Positions 49,957 to 63,223 of a stretch of 64,000 bases of DNA are shown here, piece after piece. Numbering within the stretch: position 1 is the stretch's first letter; the number at the start of each line of letters is the position of its first letter. The position numbers were made by a program, and so were the translations under genes. Under the pieces are notes generated by a model that was given only the letters and a program-made list of their open reading frames with translations, did no database searches and was not told where the DNA came from. Where the stretch lies: contig NC_015186.1 of assembly GCF_000202835.1 (NCBI RefSeq), forward strand, positions 1,550,001 through 1,614,000, read 5' to 3'. Source of the stretch: Acidiphilium multivorum AIU301 (GTDB taxonomy: Bacteria > Pseudomonadota > Alphaproteobacteria > Acetobacterales > Acetobacteraceae).

Positions 49957-50433
49957 ATGGTCACCATCGTCACCAAAACCCAGGGCCCGCGCCCTGAAGA
50001 CGTCCGGATGCGGGAGATTCTCCGGCGCAACCAGGGAACGATCACGCGCATCGCCGACCACATCACCGCCGGCGGCTACTCGGCGCGCAAGGCACCGAAG
50101 CCGGCCCCCGAGGCCAGCGGCCTGATCATCAGCACGGGCGCTGCCTCGCGCCCCGACACCACGGCGGCCGCCCCATCCGTGCGGATCAGCGTGAATGGGC
50201 GTGTCTGCCTCGTCGACGGGAACACCGGCTACCAGTTGCATCACCTGGGAACCCTGCAGCGGCGTGGCGGCGAGGAGATTTTCGTGCTGGCCACCGATGC
50301 CAACGGATTCATCGCGCCCGTGGCGCCCGAGATCGCGGCGCCGCTCGGCACGCTGGACGGCACGCGGCTTTCCCCGTCCTATGGCGAGGACGAACTGGCC
50401 GCCGAAATCGGCGTTCGGCTGGGCATTGGCTGA
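49957..50433 (+). CDS. Hypothetical protein linked to the sigma54 activator
   Basis: A 158-residue protein with no known family. The N-terminal 40 residues are charged and probably helical; residues 45-75 are Ala/Pro/Ser-rich; the C-terminal half (VRISVNGRVCLVDGNTGYQLHHLG to DELAAEIGVRLG) looks like a small folded domain. GGGAGGA precedes the ATG. It is the only gene between the AT-rich region and the activator gene, on the same strand, so it probably belongs to the monooxygenase regulon or the sensing circuit. No function is claimed. Confidence 0.6.
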   Translation: MVTIVTKTQGPRPEDVRMREILRRNQGTITRIADHITAGGYSARKAPKPAPEASGLIISTGAASRPDTTAAAPSVRISVNGRVCLVDGNTGYQLHHLGTLQRRGGEEIFVLATDANGFIAPVAPEIAAPLGTLDGTRLSPSYGEDELAAEIGVRLGIG

Positions 50434-50551: not shown

Positions 50552-52486
<1,935 letters not shown>

Positions 52487-52529: not shown

Positions 52530-54164
52530 TCATGCGCGGCCGAGACGCTCGGCGCCGCCGCCGCGGGCGGGAGACGCGGTCGGGTCTTCCTCGTCCTCAC
52601 CCAGATCGCCCACCAGCGTTTCCGTGGTCAGGATCAGCTTGGCGACCGAGGCGGCGTTGCGCAGCGCCGTGCAGGTGACGCGGACGGGATCGATGATGCC
52701 GGCATCGTACATGTTCTGGAACGTGCCGATGGCGGCATTGTAGCCGAAACCGCCATTCACCGCCGAGACCTGGGCGACCACGTGGTCGGGGTCGCCGCCG
52801 GCATTGGTCACGATGCGCCAGAGCGGGCGGGTGAGGATGGAGCGGACGAGCTTCACCCCTTCCGCGACATCGCCGCCGACGCCGGCCAGAACCTCGTCGA
52901 GCACCGGGCCGATCTGCGCCAGCGCGGTGCCGCCGCCGGCAACCACCCCCTCCTCGCTCGCGGCGCGCACGGCGGCGAGCGAATCCTCGATCAGCTGGAT
53001 GGTGCGCTTCTGCTCGACCGGCGTCGCTCCGCCGGCATAAAGTATGGCGGTACCGCCGGAAAGCTTCGCGAGGCGCTCGCGCAGCTTGTCCTGCTCGATA
53101 TTGGGCGGGGCGACATCGTGCATCCGCTGCACCTGCGCCCGGCGCGCGGCGATCGCCGCCGGATCGCCGGCGCCGCCGATGATCGCGGTGTGCGTCGCAC
53201 TGGTGCGCACCCGCTCGGCGGCGCCGAGATCGGCCGCCGTGACGTCCTCGACCCGGCCGCCAAGATCGCGGGCGATGACGCGGCCGCCGGTGATGATGGC
53301 GATATCCTCCATCATCGCCTTGCGCCAGTTGCCGTATTCGGGCGGATGCACGACGAGGTAGCGGCCCGGCCCGTCGCGCCCGAGCAGGCTGACGACGACC
53401 TCCGGCGCCACCTCCTCGGCGATCACGAGAAGCGGGCGGTGGGCGTCGGCGGCGAGCGCGCGCGCCGCATCGAGCGCATGGGGATCGCGGATCTTGAGAT
53501 CCGTCATCAGGATCAGCGGCCGTTCGAGCACGGCTTCCATCTTCTCCTGATCGGTCACCATGTGATGCGAGATATAGCCGCGATCGAAGGACATGCCTTC
53601 GACGACCTCGAGCGTCGTTGCGGTGGTCACGCTGAAGTCGGTGGTGATCACGCCCTCGGCGCCGACGCGCGCGAAGGCCTCGGCGACCAGCGCGCCGAGA
53701 TGCGGCTCGGTTGCGGCGATGTTGGCCACCGCGGCGAGCATGCCGTTGCCGGAAGCCGGCCGGGCCGCTTCCTTGAGGGACGATGCCACGCGCTCGACCG
53801 CGAGATCGATCCCGCGGATGAGATCGACCGCGCGGGCGCCGCGCTCGCTGGCCTCGACGCCGGCCTGGACGAGCGCGTTGGCGAGCACGATCGCGGTGGT
53901 GGTGCCGTCGCCCGCGAGTTCGTTGGTCTGCATCGAGACCTCTCGGACGACCTGCGCGCCCATGTTCTCGAACCGGTTCGGCAGCTCGATCTCCACCGCG
54001 ATGCTGACGCCATCGCGCGTGACCATCGGCGTGCCGATCGGCCGGTCGATCATCGCGTTCATGCCTTTAGGCCCGAGCGTGGGCTCGACGGCCGCCGCGA
54101 GCCGGCCCACACCGCGGGCCAGCGCACGCCGGGCTTCGGAATTATGCAGAAGCAGCTTAGCCAT
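52530..54164 (-). CDS. Dedicated GroEL-like chaperonin of the monooxygenase operon
   Basis: A 544-residue group I chaperonin. The ATPase site shows TLGPKGMNAMID, DGVSIAVEIE and Asp86 in AGDGTTTAIV; VVAGGGTALAQIG is the third nucleotide motif. Unlike housekeeping GroEL, it ends DLGEDEEDPTASPARGGG without GGM repeats and has no groES beside it. In mycobacteria a chaperonin of this sort, MimG, is needed to fold the MimA hydroxylase; the same role is expected here. It is the last gene of the minus-strand unit, 44 bases after the amidohydrolase. Confidence 0.9.
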   Translation of the reverse strand: MAKLLLHNSEARRALARGVGRLAAAVEPTLGPKGMNAMIDRPIGTPMVTRDGVSIAVEIELPNRFENMGAQVVREVSMQTNELAGDGTTTAIVLANALVQAGVEASERGARAVDLIRGIDLAVERVASSLKEAARPASGNGMLAAVANIAATEPHLGALVAEAFARVGAEGVITTDFSVTTATTLEVVEGMSFDRGYISHHMVTDQEKMEAVLERPLILMTDLKIRDPHALDAARALAADAHRPLLVIAEEVAPEVVVSLLGRDGPGRYLVVHPPEYGNWRKAMMEDIAIITGGRVIARDLGGRVEDVTAADLGAAERVRTSATHTAIIGGAGDPAAIAARRAQVQRMHDVAPPNIEQDKLRERLAKLSGGTAILYAGGATPVEQKRTIQLIEDSLAAVRAASEEGVVAGGGTALAQIGPVLDEVLAGVGGDVAEGVKLVRSILTRPLWRIVTNAGGDPDHVVAQVSAVNGGFGYNAAIGTFQNMYDAGIIDPVRVTCTALRNAASVAKLILTTETLVGDLGEDEEDPTASPARGGGAERLGRA

Positions 54165-54208
54165 TTTGTCTCCCTTCGGCCGATGGCCGGCGTGCTGCGT
54201 GGACCGGC

Positions 54209-55231
54209 CTATTCGGCGGCGACCGCGAGCGGCGAGGCCGCAAGCGCCGCCTTCTTCGCCGCGATGTCGATGCCGTAGAGCTTCGCGGCGTTGAGGCCGA
54301 GGATCTTTTCCTTGATCGCCGGGGTGAGGTCGATGCCGCGCTCCTGCTTCACATCTTCAGGCAGCTCGAAGTTCCAGAATTTCTCGACCAGCCAGCGCGG
54401 CGTCCAGATCGCGTAGTCGGAGCCGAACAGGATGCGGTCCTCGCCGAGCCAGAACAGCAGCTCGCCCATGATTTCGGCGAAGTAGCGCGGCCGGGAATGG
54501 ATGAAGGGCAGGACGACCGCGAGGCCGCCATAGACGTTGGCCTCCTGCACCGCGATCCAGCAGAAATCGTCGATGCGCGGCTGGCCGCAATGCTCGACCA
54601 CCCAGTTGAGATTGGGGAAGTCGGTCGCCGCATAATCGACGTCGTGAACGTCGAAAGCGTCCTTGCTCAGCGGGATGATGGTCGGGCCCTTGTGGACGTG
54701 CATGTTCCTGATGCCGAGCTTCTCGCAAAGCTCGAAGCATTTGTATGCCTCGGGATCGTTCAGACGCCAGCCGCGGGAGGCTCCGTTCCATTCGGCGGTG
54801 TAGAGTTTCACGCCCTGGATATTGTATGTTTCTTTCATGTAATGGATGTATTCGAGCGCCTTCTCGCCGTCCCGCGGGTCGAACGCGCCATTGACGATGA
54901 AGCGCTCGGGGTAGCGGGCGGCGACGTCCGCATTGCGTTCGATCGTGTTGAAACCTGTCTTGTAGAAATCCTTGAGGTAGGTCGACTGCACGATCGCGAC
55001 ATCGTCGGGGCCGTCGATGAAGAGGTCGCGATAGAGATCATCGGCGCTGTATTTCTCGAACTTCTCCTTCGGCCACAATTTGTCGGCGGGGCTGAGCGCG
55101 TTGTGATAGGCGAAGAAGCATTCGATGAACTGCTTGCCGTGAATGTTGCTCTGGTTCGCCGGGCTGCCGTCCCAGAAATGGGTGTGGCCGTCCACGATGA
55201 AGATTTCCTTACCCTCAGGCGTTACGAACAT
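54209..55231 (-). CDS. Amidohydrolase family protein of the monooxygenase cluster
   Basis: A 340-residue TIM-barrel metal-dependent hydrolase of the amidohydrolase-2 (ACMSD-like) family. Metal ligands are visible in VDGHTHFWDG (HxH), NMHVHKGPT, VVEHCGQPR and FGSDYAIW. In mycobacterial and rhodococcal propane/phenol monooxygenase operons a similar gene precedes the chaperonin; its substrate has not been settled. GGAGG just before the ATG at 55231 fixes the start. Confidence 0.85.
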   Translation of the reverse strand: MFVTPEGKEIFIVDGHTHFWDGSPANQSNIHGKQFIECFFAYHNALSPADKLWPKEKFEKYSADDLYRDLFIDGPDDVAIVQSTYLKDFYKTGFNTIERNADVAARYPERFIVNGAFDPRDGEKALEYIHYMKETYNIQGVKLYTAEWNGASRGWRLNDPEAYKCFELCEKLGIRNMHVHKGPTIIPLSKDAFDVHDVDYAATDFPNLNWVVEHCGQPRIDDFCWIAVQEANVYGGLAVVLPFIHSRPRYFAEIMGELLFWLGEDRILFGSDYAIWTPRWLVEKFWNFELPEDVKQERGIDLTPAIKEKILGLNAAKLYGIDIAAKKAALAASPLAVAAE

Positions 55232-55308
55232 GGTTTCCTCCACGTGTTGATTGCTTGCTGGGCGGCGCGCCACGCGCTTGCCGCGCGGGCGCGCCGGAGT
55301 GCCGCGGT

Positions 55309-55677
55309 TCAGATGTATTCGAAGACGTCGTCCATGTTGCCGAACAGGATCACGGTGTTGTCATCGACGCGGACCATGCGACCGTAATGCGTCGAGGTGT
55401 TCACCTCGAAGATTTCCGCCGTCATCTCGCGGCCGAGATAATCGCCGATCTCGTCCATCTTGAAGATCAGCTTGCCGTGACCGTCGATACGGATCAGCGC
55501 CGGCTGGTAGGTGACGGTGACGCCGGGCTTGTCGCTCATGAATTCGGCGATGGCGCGGGCCTCGACCGAATCGTTCATGGTGACACCGCACTGATCCGAG
55601 ATCGTCTGCTCGAAGGTGATGTCCTTCATCTGCTTGAAGATGGTCGAATGGGTCGCGTCGCGTGCTGCTGTTGACAT
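55309..55677 (-). CDS. mimD: Monooxygenase coupling (effector) protein MimD-like
   Basis: A 122-residue regulatory component of the soluble di-iron monooxygenase. It lacks cofactor ligands and has the MmoB/DmpM fold with CGVTMNDSVEARAIAEFMSD and IDGHGKLIFKMDEIGDYLGREM. It binds the hydroxylase and tunes electron transfer and substrate access. CAGGAG precedes the ATG. It follows the small subunit gene by 23 bases. Confidence 0.9.
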   Translation of the reverse strand: MSTAARDATHSTIFKQMKDITFEQTISDQCGVTMNDSVEARAIAEFMSDKPGVTVTYQPALIRIDGHGKLIFKMDEIGDYLGREMTAEIFEVNTSTHYGRMVRVDDNTVILFGNMDDVFEYI

Positions 55678-55700
55678 GATGTTATCTCCTGTGCGGGGCG

Positions 55701-56756
55701 TCAGGCGAGGCCGAGTTCGCCGAGGATCTTGCCGATGCGCTCCTGCGACTGCGCCCTGACATCCTGGAACGAGACGGGTTTGGAATGGGGCATCGACCAG
55801 ATCGGTTGCAGGCCGAGGGCCGCCTTGTCGGCGAGGGCGCGGTGTTTTTCGAGCCAGCCATGGAGAATCGCCCGGTTCTCGCCGCCATGTGTCTCGTCGT
55901 TGGCGAGGAGGTAGATGAGGTCGATCGTGTTCGCGAGGTTGCGTTCGTAATCGGCCTCGGCGGCGGAGATCACCGGCGGGGTGACGAAATCGTTGTTGGC
56001 GGCGGCGACCTGCATCAGGAAGCCGGAGCGGAACAGCTCGCCCACCAGCGGCTCGAAGACGATGTTGATCGCGAAATACTGTTCGAGATAGTCGCTCGAC
56101 CCCATGATCGTCTCGACCGCCTCGCGCGTGCCCTGCCAGATCGGGTCTTCGAGCCAGGCGACCTTGCCGAGCTCGTCGTTCCAGCCGGGAATGTCCATGC
56201 CGATTTCGGCGAGGTAGAGCGTGATGTCCTGCGCGAGGCGCATCTTGTAGGATGAGTTGGTCAGCGTCGCGTTGTTGATCATCTGCGTGTAGCCATAGCG
56301 CTGCGCCTGCATCAGCGAGGTGCCGAGCCCGAATTCGGCATGTTTCCAGGCGCCGAGATGGGTTTGCAGGATGCGCTGCCAGGCCTTGTCGAAATTCGCC
56401 GGCGCGCCGGCGCGGCGGGCATTGGCGATCACGCTCTGCACCATGGTCTCGATGCGGGACTGGCGCTGGTAATGCGTGCGCTCCCATTCCTGGTCCGGCG
56501 CGCGGAAGGCATGCCAGTTGCTGCTTTTCAGCGCCGTGGCGTCCTTCACATAAGCACCCTTGCCGTTGGCGAAGGAGATGATCCAGTTCTGGATCAGGTA
56601 GCGCTCGGGATCGGGCTGGACATCGACCGTGACGTCTTCGTAATGGGTGGCGCGCTTGCCGCGCGGCTCGAAATAGCGGTAGCGGCGGCTGTCGGAATCC
56701 GCGAAGATCGCCGCTCCCGCGGCACCCGATCCGACTGAACTCGACAAGGCTGGCAT
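55701..56756 (-). CDS. mimC: Monooxygenase hydroxylase small (beta) subunit MimC-like
   Basis: A 351-residue hydroxylase beta subunit, helical and related to the ferritin-like alpha subunit but without iron ligands, as is normal. Typical segments are RRYRYFEPRGKRATHYEDVTVDVQ, LGAWKHAEFGLGTSLMQAQRYG and LGKVAWLEDPIWQG. It pairs with MimA as an (alpha-beta)2 core. GGGAG lies ahead of the ATG at 56756. Order A-B-C-D with the reductase second is that of mimABCD/prmABCD. Confidence 0.92.
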   Translation of the reverse strand: MPALSSSVGSGAAGAAIFADSDSRRYRYFEPRGKRATHYEDVTVDVQPDPERYLIQNWIISFANGKGAYVKDATALKSSNWHAFRAPDQEWERTHYQRQSRIETMVQSVIANARRAGAPANFDKAWQRILQTHLGAWKHAEFGLGTSLMQAQRYGYTQMINNATLTNSSYKMRLAQDITLYLAEIGMDIPGWNDELGKVAWLEDPIWQGTREAVETIMGSSDYLEQYFAINIVFEPLVGELFRSGFLMQVAAANNDFVTPPVISAAEADYERNLANTIDLIYLLANDETHGGENRAILHGWLEKHRALADKAALGLQPIWSMPHSKPVSFQDVRAQSQERIGKILGELGLA

Positions 56757-56798
56757 TGTTTCTCTCCCTGGGTTTCGGTTGGCCCGTGCGGCGCGCGA

Positions 56799-57890
56799 TC
56801 AGTGACCGGCGGGTACGGGAACGCTCGAGGATGTGGTGAACCTGTCAAAGAAGACGCGCTCGTTTTCGAAGCCGTTCATGAACAGCACCGGCTGCAGCGC
56901 ATCGATCATGGGGGGTGGTCCGCAGGCATAGACGTCGCCCTCGCCGTCGATGCCGAGCGCCTTCAGCCTGGCGTCGACACATTCATGCACGAAGCCGCGT
57001 TCGCCCTCCCAGCCGGCATCGCCGCTCGCGTGCGAGAGAACGGGGATGAATTCCAGCTCCGGGTGGCGGTCCGCAAGCTGCGCGATGCGGTCCAGATGGA
57101 ACAGATCCTCCCGCGTGCGCGCGCCGTAGAAGAAGTAGACCGGCCGGCTTTCGCCGCTGGCGAAATGGTCGTTCAGGATCGACCAGATCGGCGACATGCC
57201 GGAGCCGGCGCCGACCAGGATCAGCGGTCCGGTTCGTCCTTCCCGTCGGAAGCAGGTGCCGTAGGGCCCGGTGAGGGAGACATCGGCGCCGATCCTGATT
57301 CCGCCGCTGTCGAGTTCTCCGGAGAATTTTCCTTCGGGATATTTCTTGATGATGAAGGAGAGGCTTTTGGTTTGGTCCGGCGTATTTGCCATGGAAAACG
57401 AGCGCGTAATCGTCTCCCCTTTTTCCGTGGTGACGGTAATGTCGACATATTGTCCGGCCCAGAACTTGATCGGGGAGTCGAGGTCGATCGTGATTCCGCG
57501 AATGTCGTGCGTCAGCCGCGAAATCTCGCTGATCCGGCCGCTGAAGGTCCGCACCGCGATCGACCGCGACAGAACCTCCTCGTCATAGTTGAGAAGCTCG
57601 ACCTCCATGTCGGAATAGGCGATCGCGCGGCAGAGCAGGATATGGCCGCTCTCCCGCTCCGTGTCGTTGAGCGCGAAGGTCGAGTACCTGAGCATGTCGA
57701 CCTCGCCATCCGTCAGGATGCACTTGCAGGCCGAACACTGGCCCTCCTTGCAGCCATGCGGCAGGGCGATGCCCTGGCGGAACGCGGCGTTGAGCACCGT
57801 CTCGCCATCCTCGACCTCGAACTCGACCCCGACCGGTTCGAGCCTGACCGTATGCGTACCACCCATCTGGCCGATCTCCCGAAAGTCCAT
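56799..57890 (-). CDS. mimB: Monooxygenase NADH reductase MimB-like
   Basis: A 363-residue flavo-iron-sulfur reductase passing electrons from NADH to the di-iron site. The plant-type [2Fe-2S] ferredoxin domain (1-100) has Cys47, Cys52, Cys55 and Cys87. The FAD domain has RSFSMANTP (163-171), and the NAD domain has VGAGSGMSPIW and CGPPPMIDAL. The ATG at 57890 with GGAG 4 bases upstream is taken rather than the GTG one codon earlier. An 83-base gap with a stable hairpin separates it from mimA. Confidence 0.93.
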   Translation of the reverse strand: MDFREIGQMGGTHTVRLEPVGVEFEVEDGETVLNAAFRQGIALPHGCKEGQCSACKCILTDGEVDMLRYSTFALNDTERESGHILLCRAIAYSDMEVELLNYDEEVLSRSIAVRTFSGRISEISRLTHDIRGITIDLDSPIKFWAGQYVDITVTTEKGETITRSFSMANTPDQTKSLSFIIKKYPEGKFSGELDSGGIRIGADVSLTGPYGTCFRREGRTGPLILVGAGSGMSPIWSILNDHFASGESRPVYFFYGARTREDLFHLDRIAQLADRHPELEFIPVLSHASGDAGWEGERGFVHECVDARLKALGIDGEGDVYACGPPPMIDALQPVLFMNGFENERVFFDRFTTSSSVPVPAGH

Positions 57891-57933
57891 CACGCTCCGG
57901 CTGGGTTGCCGGAGATGTCGCGTTGAGAAGGAA

Positions 57934-57960
57934 GCGGGAGCCGGGGCGAACGGCTCCCGC
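57934..57960 (-). other. Intercistronic hairpin between mimA-like and mimB-like genes
   Basis: A perfect 9-base-pair stem (57934-57942 with 57952-57960, 9-base loop) stands in the 83-base gap after the large-subunit gene. There is no long T run, so it may stabilise the upstream message, cause partial termination or mark RNA processing, lowering reductase relative to hydroxylase. Confidence 0.55.
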
Positions 57961-57973
57961 GAAGTGCGCCGGA

Positions 57974-59641
57974 TCAGTTGAACGGCGTGATCGTGAAGCC
58001 CGCGCGATATTCGGCGATATGCTTCGCGCGATCCTCCGGGCTCATCTCCCGCAGCAAGGTGAGCGGCGAGAGCAGGGTGTGGCCGCGCACGTCATCGAGC
58101 GTCCACAGTTCGCTGTCCTCGAAGCGCAGATGCGGCTGGGGCACCAGGGTCTTGCCGTCGGAGCGGACGAAGTTGAGATCCTTGATCGCGTCCGCGAGAT
58201 CCCAGCCGTGATAGACCGTCTCCCACTCGCGCTTGCCGCTGAAGCGGCCCATCGCGGGGGTCGGGCGGCCCTGATATTCGTCGGCGAAGGCCTCGACGGC
58301 GGTCCAGCGATCGAGCTCGTGGGCGAAGGTGTGCAGCTTGCCGTCGATTTCGTCGACCACCATGTCCTCGCGGATCAGGCAGGGGACGAGGCAGCTCCAG
58401 CAGCGATGCGGATAGACGTAGCCGACATCCTGGTTGAAGGTGATGACCGTCTCGCCGCGATGGCTGAGCTTGTCGTACCATTTCCAGAAATCGCCGAACT
58501 TCGCGTACCAGCCGGGGTATTTGTGTTCGAACCACTCGAAGTCCGCCTCGCGCTGGGCCTCGATGCGCCAGAAGTTCACCGGCCAGCCGACGGCGAAGAA
58601 CTGGGCGACGTGGTGGACATAGAGCTTCTCGGTCAGCCGCTTCCACGCGGCCTGGACGTCGTCGTGATGCACCTTGATGCCGTATTTCTCGAGCGGCAGC
58701 ATGTAGGTGCGGTAGTAATCCTCGAAGATCCAGCGGTGCCACATCTCCGCATAGGATTCCTTCGACTTGTCGCGATTGGTGGTGCCGTATTCGATGAAGG
58801 TGCCGATCGCGGCATCGACGATCGCGTGGTTCTGCCAGAAGGCGTAGCGCAGGTCGCGTTCGAGCAGGAGATGGTTGTCCGGCTCCTTGAGGGCGGCCAT
58901 CAGCATCGAGTGGCCGTTGCCGATATGCCGGCTCTCGTCGGACTGCACCGAGAGGAAGACGGTCGGCAGCGCGTAGTCGCCGTTGCGGGCGGCCTCGGAG
59001 GGCATGGCGACGAACAGCGTGTTGGTGAACGCGGTTTCAGCGACGACGGTGAGATACATGCAGGCGGCGGTCATCGTGTCGCCGGTGATGAACCCCTCGC
59101 CGAACTGGCGGCCGATCGTGGTCGCGTAGCATTTGCCGAAGGCTTCCTCGGTGATGTCGAAGCCCGCCGGGTCGATGTAGTTCTCCATGTACCATTTCTT
59201 GAGGTTCATCTGGATGGTCGAGTGGCGGAACTCGTCGACCATCTGCATGGTGAACCCGGTGCGCAGATCCTCGCCCGGCGCGAGGCGCGCGACCATCGCC
59301 ATCGAGCGCGCCGCCGAGATTTCCGGGAAGGGGATGATCGCCAGGAACAGCTTCATCCATTCGACCCAGCGCGGCTCGACATTGCGGAACATGTCGCCGC
59401 GCAGCGCCGCATCGAGCGCGCCGTAGACGCGGTTGTCCTTCTCTTCCTGCATCGGGAAGTAGGAGCGCAGCACCTGCTTCATCGGATCGCGCGGTGCCTT
59501 GGTGATCTTGTAGTCCGTCGGGAAGGTCATCGCTTCCTGGACATAGGTCGGGTTCCACCCGAGGTCGGAAATCTTCCTGGTCGCCTCGCCGACGGATATG
59601 CCGCGCTGCGAGGTAATCTTGTTGAGCGTCAAGGACGTCAT
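57974..59641 (-). CDS. mimA: Soluble di-iron monooxygenase large (alpha) subunit, MimA/PrmA-like
   Basis: A 555-residue catalytic subunit that hydroxylates a small substrate with O2. All six iron ligands of MmoX are present with a constant -7 offset: Glu107, Glu137-x2-His140 (DEFRH), Glu202, Glu236-x2-His239 (DESRH). Thr206 matches the catalytic Thr213 of MmoX; at the Cys151 position there is Gln144, as in toluene/phenol enzymes. Closest known relatives are mycobacterial MimA and group 5/6 propane monooxygenases, which use propane, acetone or phenol. GGAGG supports the ATG at 59641; the longer frame is untranslated leader. Confidence 0.93.
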   Translation of the reverse strand: MTSLTLNKITSQRGISVGEATRKISDLGWNPTYVQEAMTFPTDYKITKAPRDPMKQVLRSYFPMQEEKDNRVYGALDAALRGDMFRNVEPRWVEWMKLFLAIIPFPEISAARSMAMVARLAPGEDLRTGFTMQMVDEFRHSTIQMNLKKWYMENYIDPAGFDITEEAFGKCYATTIGRQFGEGFITGDTMTAACMYLTVVAETAFTNTLFVAMPSEAARNGDYALPTVFLSVQSDESRHIGNGHSMLMAALKEPDNHLLLERDLRYAFWQNHAIVDAAIGTFIEYGTTNRDKSKESYAEMWHRWIFEDYYRTYMLPLEKYGIKVHHDDVQAAWKRLTEKLYVHHVAQFFAVGWPVNFWRIEAQREADFEWFEHKYPGWYAKFGDFWKWYDKLSHRGETVITFNQDVGYVYPHRCWSCLVPCLIREDMVVDEIDGKLHTFAHELDRWTAVEAFADEYQGRPTPAMGRFSGKREWETVYHGWDLADAIKDLNFVRSDGKTLVPQPHLRFEDSELWTLDDVRGHTLLSPLTLLREMSPEDRAKHIAEYRAGFTITPFN

Positions 59642-59879
59642 GTCTTCAAACCTCCACCTTGTTTGCGCCCGGGTCCCCTGACCCCGGCGGAAAGCGGCCA
59701 CACACGCCGCCGTTCGAGTTGTCGACGGGATCGAGCCCGCCCAGTGGATCACGGCAAAGGTCTGCGAACGATCCGGTCTGGCAACGACGAACGCGCGTCG
59801 GCCGCCAGCCATGTTTCCTCCGTTCCTTCGTTCTTGTGGCACCGCGCCTGGCGCGATGGGTTTCTTCTGCCCGATGTTC

Positions 59880-59896
59880 TGCAAGTCGTGTGCCAA
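59880..59896 (-). promoter_or_regulatory. Sigma54 promoter of the mim-like operon
   Basis: Read on the minus strand: TTGGCAC, ACGAC, TTGCA, an exact fit to the -24 (TGGCAC) and -12 (TTGCA) elements with five bases between. It lies about 240 bases upstream of the large-subunit ATG, and the window also encodes a matching sigma54 activator. Confidence 0.9.
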
Positions 59897-60139: not shown

Positions 60140-60610
60140 GTGTCCGAAAAGAAGCGGCGAACCCGAAATCCGGCTGCATCCACGTGGAACGAGGACGACG
60201 CGGTCGATCAGCTCATGCGGCTGATGTCGCGCGATCTGGTGTTCACCATGACATTTCTCGGCGAGAGCCAGCATAGGATGCAGCGGCATTTCGAGACATT
60301 CATCACCGATGCCCTCGCCGCGGCCGGAGTGACTCAGGAGACGCACCCGATGATTCGGCTGTTCATCGAGCGGCATGCCGCCCTGCTGCGGGAATTCGTG
60401 TTTTCCGGCGTGGCACTTTCACGGCAGTTCGGGATCGGCGAGATCGAGCGGCTGATCGGCGATGCGTCGTCGCTGCTGCGGATCGATATCTGGGACCAGC
60501 TCAGGAGCCATATCGAGATGGCGGAAACCCGGTTCCGCGCCCAGCTTCCCGACCTGCCGCGGCAGCTCGCCGATTTCGAGGCGCCCGCGCCGCCGGAGGC
60601 CAGGCCATGA
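60140..60610 (+). CDS. Hypothetical helical protein, first gene of divergent cluster
   Basis: A 156-residue, mostly helical cytosolic protein with no recognised family. A basic N-terminal tail (KKRRTRNP) is followed by helices around DAVDQLMRLMSRDLVFTM, HRMQRHFETFITDAL and SLLRIDIWDQLRSHIEMAETRF. GGAG at 60130-60133 fits the GTG at 60140. Its stop overlaps the next ATG (ATGA). It is transcribed away from the mim-like operon and shares its regulatory region. Function unknown. Confidence 0.65.
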   Translation: MSEKKRRTRNPAASTWNEDDAVDQLMRLMSRDLVFTMTFLGESQHRMQRHFETFITDALAAAGVTQETHPMIRLFIERHAALLREFVFSGVALSRQFGIGEIERLIGDASSLLRIDIWDQLRSHIEMAETRFRAQLPDLPRQLADFEAPAPPEARP

Positions 60611-60915
60611 GCGGCGCGATGGCCGAACGGCGGCGGCTGTTGGGCCGCCGCCTCGAACTCGTCGGCGTGATGTGCGGGCTGAATGCCGAGGCATTGCGCG
60701 TATTGCAGAACCTTGCCGCCATCGAGATCGACATCCAGCGGCTGGAGGCCGAGGACGATGGCGATGCGCCGCCGGCGCCGGAGCAGTTGCGCGCCGCCAC
60801 CGATGAAGCCGCCGCGCTGCGCGATGCGCAGGCCGCGTGCGAGATGCGGATCGAGACGGTGGAGGCGGAGATGTCCGAGATCGACCGGTTGCTGGCGGCG
60901 ATGACGGACGACTGA
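60607..60915 (+). CDS. Hypothetical coiled-coil protein
   Basis: A 102-residue protein made of two predicted long helices: ERRRLLGRRLELVGVMCGL and LRDAQAACEMRIETVEAEMSEIDRLLAAM, separated by an acidic, Pro-containing turn (EDDGDAPPAPE). The heptad-like spacing suggests an antiparallel coiled coil. It is coupled to the preceding gene and followed after 16 bases, with GGAGGAAAGG, by the beta-propeller gene. Function unknown; a binding role in a complex with its neighbours is inference. Confidence 0.65.
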   Translation: MSGAMAERRRLLGRRLELVGVMCGLNAEALRVLQNLAAIEIDIQRLEAEDDGDAPPAPEQLRAATDEAAALRDAQAACEMRIETVEAEMSEIDRLLAAMTDD

Positions 60916-60931: not shown

Positions 60932-62062
60932 ATGAACCAGGCTGGCCCGCGAACGCTCACCCTTTTCGACCTGCTCGGACGCGTCTGGCACTGCAGCGCG
61001 CCGGCCGGCGCGCTGTGCTTCGGCGGCGATGGGACGGCCGTCGCCTTTGCCTGCGCCGACGGTACGGTGGCGGTGGCTGCGATCGAGGATCCCGAACCGC
61101 CGGAGACGCGGATCCGGATCAGCGGCGATGTCGGGCAGGCGACGATCCGCCCGCGCGCGCGACCACCCGCACCGCTTGCCATCTCGCCTTCCCTGCATGA
61201 CGGCGCGCCGCCGATCGCGGCCGGCGATGGCGGCGGCTTTCTGGCCGGCACGCGGGACGGCGAGATCGTCGTGCTGGGGGCGGACGGCGCGGTGCGCGGC
61301 ACGCGGGCGCGGATCGACGGCCCGGTGATCGCGCTTGATCATGCGGCTGCGGTGGCGATCACCGCGGTCGCGGGCAGCGACGCCGTGCAGCTGTGCCAGG
61401 GCGTGGGTGCGCTATCCGACGAGCTGGCCGACGATGGCGAAGGCGAGATCGTCGGCATCCGCCTCTCGCCCTCCGGACGGCATCTCGCCATTGCGCGGAG
61501 CGAGAGCCTGAGCATCGTGGCGATCGACGGCAGCGGCCGGGCGCCGATGGTGTTTGGCCTGCTGTCGCGCCCGCTGTCGCTCGCCTGGCGGGAGGACGAG
61601 GCCTGGCTCGCCTGCACGCTGGCCGAGGGAGGGTTCCTGATGATCGATTGCGAGGGCGGACGCAGCGGCACCGTCACCGGGTTTCCGATGGCGACGCGCG
61701 ATGCCGCCTGGAGCGGGCCGGCCGCGGCGTTCGTGGCATCCGGGGCGTTTCGCGTCGCCGCCTGGTCGATGGCGACGCCGCCGCTCGATGGCGACATGAC
61801 CGGCGCGCTGGTCAGCGGCCGGGCGGGGCTGGTGGCGGTGGAGAGCGTTGCCGCACATCCGGCGCGTCCGCTCGTCGCGGCGGGTTACGCCAACGGCCAG
61901 ATCCTGCTCGTCCAGATCGGCGGGCGGGACGAACTGCTCGTGCGCCCCGGCGGCAGCGCGGTGACGGCACTCGGCTGGTCGGCTGACGGGCACCACCTCG
62001 CCGCCATCGGGGCGGACGGGATGGTGAGCATCATGGCGTTTCCGGACCGGATGTTCAAATGA
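60932..62062 (+). CDS. WD40-like beta-propeller protein
   Basis: A 376-residue protein built of repeated strand groups ending in patterns such as FGGDGTAVAFACADGTVAVAAI, IRLSPSGRHLAIARSESLSIVAI and LGWSADGHHLAAIGADGMVSIM, which are WD40-like blades; about six or seven can be counted loosely. No signal peptide or catalytic motif is seen, so it is probably a cytosolic interaction platform. The final TGA overlaps a possible ATG of the next small gene. Confidence 0.7.
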   Translation: MNQAGPRTLTLFDLLGRVWHCSAPAGALCFGGDGTAVAFACADGTVAVAAIEDPEPPETRIRISGDVGQATIRPRARPPAPLAISPSLHDGAPPIAAGDGGGFLAGTRDGEIVVLGADGAVRGTRARIDGPVIALDHAAAVAITAVAGSDAVQLCQGVGALSDELADDGEGEIVGIRLSPSGRHLAIARSESLSIVAIDGSGRAPMVFGLLSRPLSLAWREDEAWLACTLAEGGFLMIDCEGGRSGTVTGFPMATRDAAWSGPAAAFVASGAFRVAAWSMATPPLDGDMTGALVSGRAGLVAVESVAAHPARPLVAAGYANGQILLVQIGGRDELLVRPGGSAVTALGWSADGHHLAAIGADGMVSIMAFPDRMFK

Positions 62063-62088: not shown

Positions 62089-62265
62089 ATGCAGGTGCAG
62101 ATGACCGACGAGGAACGGAGCAAGGACGAGTTCTTCCAGCGCGTTGCCCAGCTTTCGGAAGAGATGGTGGCGCGGCACGGGCGGGAATTCACGATGGGCA
62201 CGCTTGTGCTCGCCGCGCGCTGGATCGCGGAGAACCGGATCGGCAGCGAGACGGCGCCGTCCTGA
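62089..62265 (+). CDS. Hypothetical 58-residue protein
   Basis: A small acidic helical protein (TDEERSKDEFFQRVAQLSEE, FTMGTLVLAARWIAENRIG). AGGGAG at 62077-62082 selects the ATG at 62089; an ATG at 62059 that overlaps the propeller gene would give 68 residues. It ends the plus-strand cluster and converges with the ribbon-helix-helix gene. Function unknown. Confidence 0.6.
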   Translation: MQVQMTDEERSKDEFFQRVAQLSEEMVARHGREFTMGTLVLAARWIAENRIGSETAPS

Positions 62266-62272
62266 CGGCGTT

Positions 62273-62536
62273 TCAGGGGCTCCGCCGGCGATAGAGAATG
62301 CACGCGGCGCGCAGCAGCGAGGCGAGATTGTCGATATCGCCGAACCAGTCCTCCGCCTCATCGTGGAGCAGGGCGATCAGACGCGGGACGGAGACGCCTT
62401 CCGCCGTGGCGATCTCGCCCAGCGCGTCCCAGAAGACGCGTTCGAGCCGCACGCTGGTCGACCGGCCGGAGAGCCGGACCGAGCGGCTGGTCTGGGCGAA
62501 ATCCGCAGGGTCGCGGCCTTGCAGAAGATTGCACAT
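62273..62536 (-). CDS. Ribbon-helix-helix domain protein
   Basis: An 87-residue protein with an RHH_4-type domain: SRSVRLSGRSTSVRLERVFWDALGEIA then SVPRLIALLHDEAE. This family resembles small DNA-binding repressors, the strand RSVRL/TSVRL contacting DNA as a dimer. GGGAGGA before the ATG at 62536 fixes the start; the longer frame lacks support. It converges with the 58-residue gene, 7 bases apart, and could be the local regulator. Confidence 0.75.
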   Translation of the reverse strand: MCNLLQGRDPADFAQTSRSVRLSGRSTSVRLERVFWDALGEIATAEGVSVPRLIALLHDEAEDWFGDIDNLASLLRAACILYRRRSP

Positions 62537-62827: not shown

Positions 62828-63223
62828 ATGGCCAAAGCGATCCACAGCATGATCCGCGTGCTCGACGAGGCGCGCTCGATCGCGTTCTACGCGCAGGCTT
62901 TCGGCCTGGAGATCGCAGATCGGCTCGATTTCGACACGTTCACGCTGGTCTACATGAGCAATGCGGAAAATGATTTTGAACTCGAACTGACGATCAACAA
63001 GGGCCGCACCGAACCCTATGCGCTCGGCGATGGCTATGGCCATATCGCCTTCTGCGTCGACGATCTCGACGCCGAGCACGCGCGGTTCGACGCGGCGGGC
63101 TGGGCGCCGCGCAAGATCGTCGAGTTCAGGCGCGACGGCACGCTGCTCGCGCGGTTCTTTTTCGTTGCCGATCCGGACGGATATCAGATCGAGGTGCTGC
63201 AACGCCACGGCCGCTATCGCTGA
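62828..63223 (+). CDS. gloA: Lactoylglutathione lyase-like VOC protein (glyoxalase I)
   Basis: A 131-residue VOC-fold enzyme close to glyoxalase I, which turns the methylglyoxal-glutathione adduct into lactoylglutathione. The four metal ligands are at the expected places: His6, a Glu near 51-53 in DFELEL, His72 in GYGHIAF and Glu122 in YQIEVLQ. GGAGAGAC is upstream of the ATG. Length is close to E. coli GloA (135). Confidence 0.85.
   Translation: MAKAIHSMIRVLDEARSIAFYAQAFGLEIADRLDFDTFTLVYMSNAENDFELELTINKGRTEPYALGDGYGHIAFCVDDLDAEHARFDAAGWAPRKIVEFRRDGTLLARFFFVADPDGYQIEVLQRHGRYR

Follow-up and report, generated by a model that had tools for sequence, protein, structure and literature searches.

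A probably imported Group V soluble di-iron monooxygenase operon in Acidiphilium multivorum, with two putative helper genes at a distant resident locus

Genes at the locus

The 64-kb window analyzed here (the whole stretch of DNA, C6:1,550,001-1,614,000) lies on a 3,749,411-base contig, C6, one of the nine contigs of the 4.21-Mb genome of Acidiphilium multivorum AIU301 (labelled G000), and contains an operon for a soluble di-iron monooxygenase (SDIMO) of the MimABCD/PrmABCD type. Coordinates refer to the window unless prefixed with C6, and we use Mim as a type name. Six minus-strand genes (Table 1) encode the two hydroxylase subunits (MimA and MimC), the reductase (MimB), the coupling protein (MimD), an amidohydrolase that is a conserved SDIMO partner, and a GroEL-like chaperonin. 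A sequence-only reading of this DNA had described these six genes and proposed an acidophilic host. Indeed, the genome is that of an Acidiphilium, with another of its contigs matching an Acidiphilium multivorum plasmid at 97% over 72% of an 8-kb query. The six open reading frames (ORFs) are intact (no internal stops), and all carry the expected Pfam domains. MimB has a ferredoxin domain with the CX4CX2C motif for a [2Fe-2S] cluster (C47, C52, C55; the fourth ligand is probably C87). An alternative GTG start for mimB is possible at 57893. The mimA frame also stays open upstream (59642-59812), where an ATG at 59812 with a good ribosome-binding site would lengthen the protein by 57 residues; the annotations of relatives use the shorter start.

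The chaperonin of the operon has no GGM tail and is one of two Cpn60 proteins encoded in the genome, the other gene being at C6:3096542-3098050. Thus, the operon chaperonin is a dedicated one, additional to the housekeeping protein, as had been predicted. The genome has only two Phenol_Hydrox genes, mimA and mimC, so this is its single SDIMO of the Mim type; a search for a second mimABCD set in the genome found none.

Table 1. Features of the operon, its surroundings and the second locus.
Feature	Position	Strand	Remarks
mimA/prmA, SDIMO hydroxylase large (alpha) subunit, 555 aa	57974..59641	-	Pfam Phenol_Hydrox, 206 bits
mimB/prmB, NAD(P)H reductase, 363 aa	56799..57890	-	Pfam Fer2 + FAD_binding_6 + NAD_binding_1
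mimC/prmC, hydroxylase small (beta) subunit, 351 aa	55701..56756	-	Pfam Phenol_Hydrox, 257 bits
mimD/prmD, coupling protein, 122 aa	55309..55677	-	Pfam MmoB_DmpM, 91 bits
Amidohydrolase, 340 aa	54209..55231	-	Pfam Amidohydro_2, 179 bits
GroEL-like dedicated chaperonin (MimG-like), 544 aa	52530..54164	-	Pfam Cpn60_TCP1, 196 bits
Sigma-54 -24/-12 promoter motif TGGCACACGACTTGCA	59880..59895	-	254 bases upstream of mimA start
Possible activator-binding sites ATGACA-N13-TGTCAT, TTACA-GG-TGTAA	59982..60018	-	half-site enrichment, suggestive only
Sigma-54-dependent activator (GAF-AAA-Fis)	50552..52486	+	convergent with operon; start inferred
Small protein beside activator	49957..50433	+	start inferred; 49% identical to homologously placed Aminobacter gene
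Module gene 1, helical 156-aa protein	60140..60610	+	homologue in 69/80 relatives
Module gene 2, 102-aa protein	60607..60915	+	homologue in 59/80 (Aminobacter query) or 50/80 (window query)
Module gene 3, WD40-repeat protein	60932..62062	+	homologue in 80/80 relatives
Module gene 4, 58-aa protein	62089..62265	+	homologue in 80/80 relatives
Ribbon-helix-helix protein (RHH_4)	62273..62536	-	homologues near mim in Aminobacter and Methylocella
Glyoxalase-I-like (VOC) protein	62828..63223	+	66% identical to gene beside Methylocella tundrae operon
Locus 2 overall (sigma-54 activator, alcohol dehydrogenase, second amidohydrolase, DUF59)	C6:3238101-3240965 (alcohol dehydrogenase to DUF59)		
Locus-2 alcohol dehydrogenase	C6:3,238,101-3,239,141		66% identical to Aminobacter gene
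Locus-2 DUF59	C6:3,240,234-3,240,965		44% identical to Aminobacter gene

Assignment to Group V

MimA aligns with the alpha chains of methane monooxygenase across residues 15-519. E107, E137, H140, E202, E236 and H239, as well as the pair T206-N207, align with residues of those chains, and all six carboxylate and histidine positions, which we take to be the di-iron ligands by analogy to MmoX, are kept. A search of the genome collection for relatives of MimA gave 534 stretches, well outside what chance could produce, of which the best 80 are hereafter "the 80 relatives". Among these, identity is 90-95% to Rhizobiales and Rhodobacterales. It is 78-84% to Azospirillum and Caballeronia, 77% to Methylocella tundrae and 64% to two Rhodococcus prm-type alpha subunits. 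Other SDIMOs of actinobacterial plasmids reach at most 38% (one 69-residue fragment at 43% was set aside) and phenol/toluene-type SDIMOs 24-29%, with plasmid records assigned to the SDIMO groups to which they presumably belong. In the alpha-subunit tree, MimA groups with PrmA-type sequences, apart from the other SDIMO groups and with long branches. Alignment, identities and tree agree with the lineage that had been proposed, the MimA/PrmA clade being represented in the tree by the two Rhodococcus prm-type sequences and not by MimA of M. smegmatis.

The operon also has the gene order alpha subunit-reductase-beta subunit-coupling protein, which is the A-B-C-D order given for actinobacterial prm/mim operons in PMC4428276. 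The type is named Group V in the scheme quoted in PMC9213486. Judged from its sequence, the operon encodes a Group V (MimABCD/PrmABCD-type) SDIMO together with an amidohydrolase and a dedicated GroEL, the second in the genome. The enzyme type is already known and the Acidiphilium operon is a further member; we found no report of a Group V SDIMO in Acidiphilium in the open-licence papers searched.

The clusters most like the operon are those of Aminobacter, Labrys, Mesorhizobium and Rhizobium, which share the order A-B-C-D-amidohydrolase-groEL, a divergent hyp155/hyp105/WD40/hyp63 module and a sigma-54 promoter, with MimA identities of 90-95%; Aminobacter also has the convergent activator. Unlike the window, these alphaproteobacterial clusters carry a DUF59 gene between amidohydrolase and groEL (77/80) and mostly an alcohol dehydrogenase (ADH) gene (71/80). 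To our knowledge, none of the mim/prm clusters of these four genera has been characterized. The propane monooxygenase (PrMO) cluster of Methylocella shares the A-B-C-D genes, a GroEL-like frame, a sigma-54 activator and a VOC protein (66%), with 77% identity for MimA of M. tundrae. The M. tundrae cluster differs in its cytochrome c, GDH3 and GMC genes, and the stretch gave no match to the amidohydrolase or to DUF59. Actinobacterial mimABCD/prmABCD clusters (M. smegmatis, RHA1, BCP1 and TY-5 from PMC4428276; Rhodococcus JS3073 by sequence) agree with the operon in subunit order and in having an amidohydrolase and a dedicated GroEL, with 64% identity to the Rhodococcus MimA, but place DUF59 and ADH ahead of groEL. 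Their regulator is upstream and divergent in Rhodococcus and Mycobacterium, according to the same paper, whereas it is convergent in the window. In a plasmid of Rhodococcus aetherivorans BW2 (L100), the stretch between the alpha frame and the dehydrogenase/amidohydrolase/DUF59/ADH/GroEL genes has no prmB, prmC or prmD match, and that operon is possibly degraded. The mim clusters of other Acidiphilium and same-family genomes represent the same system but differ in MimA (80-83%) and GroEL (57-61%) and form a separate clade. Here, "same family" follows a family code taken as GTDB Acetobacteraceae; NCBI places the genus in Acidocellaceae, order Acetobacterales.

Helper genes at a second locus

The order A-B-C-D-amidohydrolase-DUF59-groEL is found in 77 of the 80 relatives, the exceptions being the locus of a sister Acidiphilium genome (L003 of G004), a locus at a contig end (L030) and a Rhodoblastus locus from which the amidohydrolase is gone too (L053). 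In the window, amidohydrolase and groEL are separated by about 45 bases and DUF59 is not there, as in the sister locus; nor is there an ADH in place, although 71/80 relatives have one within the stretch examined. In Rhodococcus, M. smegmatis and Gordonia, prmABCD is followed by genes for a hydrolase, a metal-sulfur-cluster enzyme, an ADH and GroEL (PMC4428276). Of this hydrolase-DUF59-ADH-GroEL set, only the hydrolase and GroEL follow mimD in the window. Hence, the mycobacterial layout claimed for the operon holds for A-B-C-D, the amidohydrolase and GroEL, and not for DUF59 and ADH.

Both absent genes are present at a second locus (locus 2, Table 1), 1.63 Mb from the operon. A second amidohydrolase gene lies between ADH and DUF59, and a sigma-54 activator gene is divergent from ADH. 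No mimABCD match was found within the 20 kb examined around locus 2. This two-locus split of the helper genes from the core is unusual. Directly behind the resident DUF59 gene are genes that, as read from translations, encode a molybdopterin oxidoreductase of the dimethyl sulfoxide reductase type (L156:14977-19459); the DUF59/molybdopterin oxidoreductase neighborhood is common to G003 and G007 for about 1.5 kb past DUF59, the limit of the loci examined.

Association of DUF59 with mimA

The DUF59 gene co-occurs with mimA in the family. We counted MimA at >=80% identity and DUF59 at E <1e-40 in 299 same-family genomes, the window's included and assumed to be the same set in both counts; mimA was scored as absent where a genome had just a distant SDIMO or, in G062, a 40-residue fragment. 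DUF59 is present in all 18 mimA-positive genomes and in three of the 281 mimA-negative ones (G107, G283 and G285; five when two weak matches near E 3e-4 are included). Within the genus, the counts are 7/7 with mimA versus 0/6 without. In five of these seven genomes DUF59 is on another contig or 1.63 Mb off; some of the draft contigs are short and linkage is possible. Similarly, 12 of the 17 plasmid records with a DUF59 match at E 1e-5 (out of 72,556) also have mimA (in one case just the last 37 residues of it); the remaining five matches are distant (29-36%). A congener without mimA (G006) has two distant SDIMO alpha genes (C10:1018489, L094, and C18:36872, L096; 29-33% identity), each followed by beta-like frames.

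An alignment of 11 DUF59 proteins from Alphaproteobacteria to Rhodococcus, own copy included, has invariant cysteines at positions 58 and 229 (first-row numbering) and invariant DPELDE and CRGL motifs; the Acidiphilium copy keeps both cysteines. A model of the Aminobacter protein (predicted local distance difference test, pLDDT, 80) has an N-terminal domain with a DUF59/MIP18-like fold (best match 3lno, at a probability of 1.0 though with an E of 0.013) and a C-terminal helical domain for which no structural match was obtained.

Origin of the operon

Full-length MimA is encoded in six of the 12 other genomes of the genus, with identities to the window copy of 99% in the sister genome and 80-82% in the five others; for Labrys, Mesorhizobium, Ensifer and Aminobacter the value is 94-95%. 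In a tree built from 106 alpha subunits, the window and sister sequences fall inside a Rhizobiales/Rhodobacterales clade. The 17 same-family rows, which include four of the genus after removal of the G007 row as a duplicate, form a separate clade with support 89. Forcing these 17 rows, the window and the sister locus into one clade is rejected by the approximately unbiased (AU) test (p-AU 0.00026). In the trees of groEL (31 rows) and mimC (33 rows), native rows and Caballeronia make a supported clade, and the addition of window and sister sequences is likewise rejected (p-AU 0.00036 and 3.5e-6, respectively). The same split between native and Rhizobiales rows is seen in the amidohydrolase tree (28 rows), for which the quick tree search fell 20.8 log units short of a better tree; a clade of the operon copy with the genus only is rejected (p-AU 2.3e-7). 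The native groups tested for amidohydrolase, groEL and mimC took in Caballeronia and the genome's own second amidohydrolase, both of which are among the native rows. This second protein, from locus 2, is 91% identical to that of Acidiphilium G010 and groups with Acidiphilium, and the operon copy groups with Rhizobiales. The two amidohydrolases thus suggest that native and imported histories coexist in one genome, and the trees indicate that the operon differs from those of its congeners in clade and origin.

The operon block together with its right flank is 90% identical to the DNA of the sister genome over 15.9 kb, and the part from groEL to the window's end 89%. In the sister genome the similarity ends exactly at the groEL stop codon, and no activator is present in the 4.1 kb beyond. 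Locus 2 is 96% identical between the two genomes over 1,915 bases. Given these values, the simplest reading is one import before the split of the two species. The sulfide:quinone-reductase-like gene of the right flank is 97% identical in the sister genome and 68-72% or weaker in other genomes of the genus. No tRNA gene was found at the borders (38-64 kb).

The acquisition had first been proposed from a GC content lower than that of the flanks. Total GC is 0.59-0.64 from the amidohydrolase through mimA versus 0.62-0.79 in the flanks (38-52 kb), which bears out five of the six genes, but groEL is at about 0.70. Furthermore, GC at third codon positions (GC3) is 0.82-0.90 in the six genes and, for most comparison genes, within 0.83-0.92; the two frames in the flanks that lie near 0.70 may not be true reading frames. 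The low GC of the operon stems from codon positions 1 and 2, and the locus-2 amidohydrolase has a similarly low GC (0.625) with a GC3 of 0.92. Base composition is therefore ruled out as proof of import by the native-like GC3, and the horizontal origin stands on the trees and AU tests.

Proposed function and alternatives

We propose, with a probability of about two in three, that a Group V core was imported from a Rhizobiales/Rhodobacterales-type donor, that DUF59 and ADH are supplied in trans, and that the system likely serves in acetone or propane use. The block from mimA to groEL and the divergent module would have been acquired together by an ancestor of the two Acidiphilium genomes, where the imported version would stand in place of the resident Acidiphilium one. 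Lacking DUF59 and a secondary-alcohol/acetol dehydrogenase, the block would obtain both functions from locus 2. In SDIMOs, electrons from NAD(P)H pass through the FAD and [2Fe-2S] cluster of the reductase to the di-iron hydroxylase, the coupling protein acts as an effector that couples O2 activation to hydroxylation, and a dedicated chaperonin folds the hydroxylase. MimB, the MimA-MimC hydroxylase, MimD and the operon GroEL are predicted to play these roles here. The likeliest substrate in our analysis is acetone or propane. Mim would convert acetone to acetol (and propane to propanols), the locus-2 ADH would oxidize acetol to methylglyoxal, and the VOC gene product may then form lactoylglutathione, toward lactate. 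We propose ADH for the acetol step because the genome has this gene and no GMC match. An actinomycete with a MimABCD-related cluster and Adh1 is reported to induce the Mim proteins strongly on acetone, and Adh1 was proposed to oxidize acetol (PMC7176365). Methylocella silvestris, for its part, needs the GMC oxidoreductase Msil_1641 for acetol use (PMC7364539).

Several observations count against this proposal. A GMC protein of the Methylocella/Azospirillum kind was not matched when the genome was searched with one Azospirillum query and no positive control, which leaves the acetone route incomplete unless ADH takes this step. PMC7364539 also reports that the related Methylocella enzyme makes mainly 1-propanol from propane and ascribes acetone oxidation to other enzymes, which makes the regiochemistry and the acetone step less certain. 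MimD scores 110 bits against the cut-off of 150 of the NCBIfam MimD model (NF045941), and we therefore file the system under the Group V lineage rather than as a MimD equivalog. In the case of the amidohydrolase alone, the AU test does not reject a clade that joins the window and sister copies to all native-type rows (p-AU 0.11). No clean vacated site for a resident core was found in this genome, where the sequences on either side of the G003 core have their counterparts in separate places, C6:3736883-3740310 and C6:1310744-1315060. Lastly, the link of DUF59 to the monooxygenase is a correlation only, drawn from rows that are not phylogenetically independent, and the mim clusters of Azospirillum and Methylocella have no DUF59 in the stretches seen.

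It is possible, though we hold it doubtful on balance, that the part of DUF59 goes further: it may be an obligate, trans-acting Mim maturation factor, perhaps for metal or cluster insertion, such that the imported core, having dropped its own copy, runs on the resident one as a natural experiment. On the same view, the divergent WD40/helical-protein module would be a dedicated accessory system, so far undescribed, of proteobacterial Mim enzymes. A core without DUF59 and ADH, resident copies of both, and the near-perfect co-occurrence offer a direct genetic test of the role of DUF59 in mim/prm clusters. What merits specialist attention is the separation of the helpers from an imported core, along with the strict association of DUF59.

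Less likely, yet deserving some weight, is a main natural substrate other than a C3 compound, such as phenol, a methyl ketone or a ketone of plant origin; acetone or propane would then be oxidized adventitiously. Group V enzymes are reported to oxidize phenol too (PMC8394569), and close relatives of the operon are in many cases carried by rhizobia or by other Alphaproteobacteria of soil or sea, which are not known gas-seep bacteria. However, the genetic context points to C3 compounds through the locus-2 ADH, the glyoxalase-like VOC gene and the GMC, cytochrome c and VOC genes of related clusters. If the system is active, C3-compound oxidation would extend to another acidophilic heterotroph.

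We regard as improbable that the imported operon is a decaying passenger, inactive after loss of DUF59 and ADH. Two conserved genes are missing in situ, the genome has no GMC-type acetol oxidoreductase match, and the sister genome also lacks the activator beside its operon. Yet all ORFs are intact, and so are DUF59 and ADH at locus 2. Moreover, MimA is 99% and the amidohydrolase about 100% identical between the two genomes, against 89% for the DNA from groEL to the window's end, which, as judged from these identities, suggests purifying selection. Finally, it is very improbable that Acidiphilium simply inherited the operon vertically and that its rhizobial likeness reflects only strong constraint on MimA: MimA is highly conserved (75-95% across Alphaproteobacteria), GC3 is native-like and the wide native amidohydrolase clade is tolerated, but five other genomes of the genus have a distinct MimA that groups with the family, MimB is 59-60% identical to native proteins versus 81-83% in Labrys and Mesorhizobium (groEL 59-61% versus about 80%), and vertical inheritance is rejected under the models used for mimA, groEL and mimC and, within the genus, for the amidohydrolase.

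Promoter, regulator and divergent module

The system extends beyond the six genes, from about 49.9 to 63.2 kb. The promoter motif upstream of mimA follows the pattern TGGCAC-N5-TTGCA, and sites scoring 10 or 11 of 11 positions occur in 84/97 mim loci (0.35 expected from single-base shuffles), many of the loci being close kin; the best sigma-54-like site of a Rhodococcus locus (L140) scores only 8/11. In a set of 64 loci, many of them near-identical, the region 40-200 bases upstream of the sigma-54 site is enriched in GTTACA/TGTAAA-type half-sites, and palindromes lie upstream of the promoter in 54 of the 64 versus 25 expected, also in closely related rows. These elements are suggestive only as predicted activator-binding sites. 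The convergent activator, which may regulate the operon, is 67% identical to that in the same position in Aminobacter. The small protein encoded beside it has no Pfam, PHROG or NCBIfam match.

The divergent module is on the strand opposite mimA in 73/80 relatives. Among its four products, only the WD40 protein has a notable family match. Of the 72,556 plasmid records, five encode the 156-aa protein, and mimA is present in each. The model of this protein (pLDDT 77) gave no fold match, with a best Foldseek E of 2.0, and no PDB relative was found by sequence. With homologues of two of its genes in all 80 close relatives, this WD40/small-protein module is an untouched target. The glyoxalase-I-like protein encoded farther out scores 119 bits against a cut-off of 165 for the lactoylglutathione lyase (GloA) model, and 12/80 relatives have a homologue in the stretch examined. 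Just right of the window (L103:5011-18442 on C6), translations point to the sulfide:quinone-reductase-like gene, an RND efflux pair and a hydrogenase-4/NDH-like membrane cluster.

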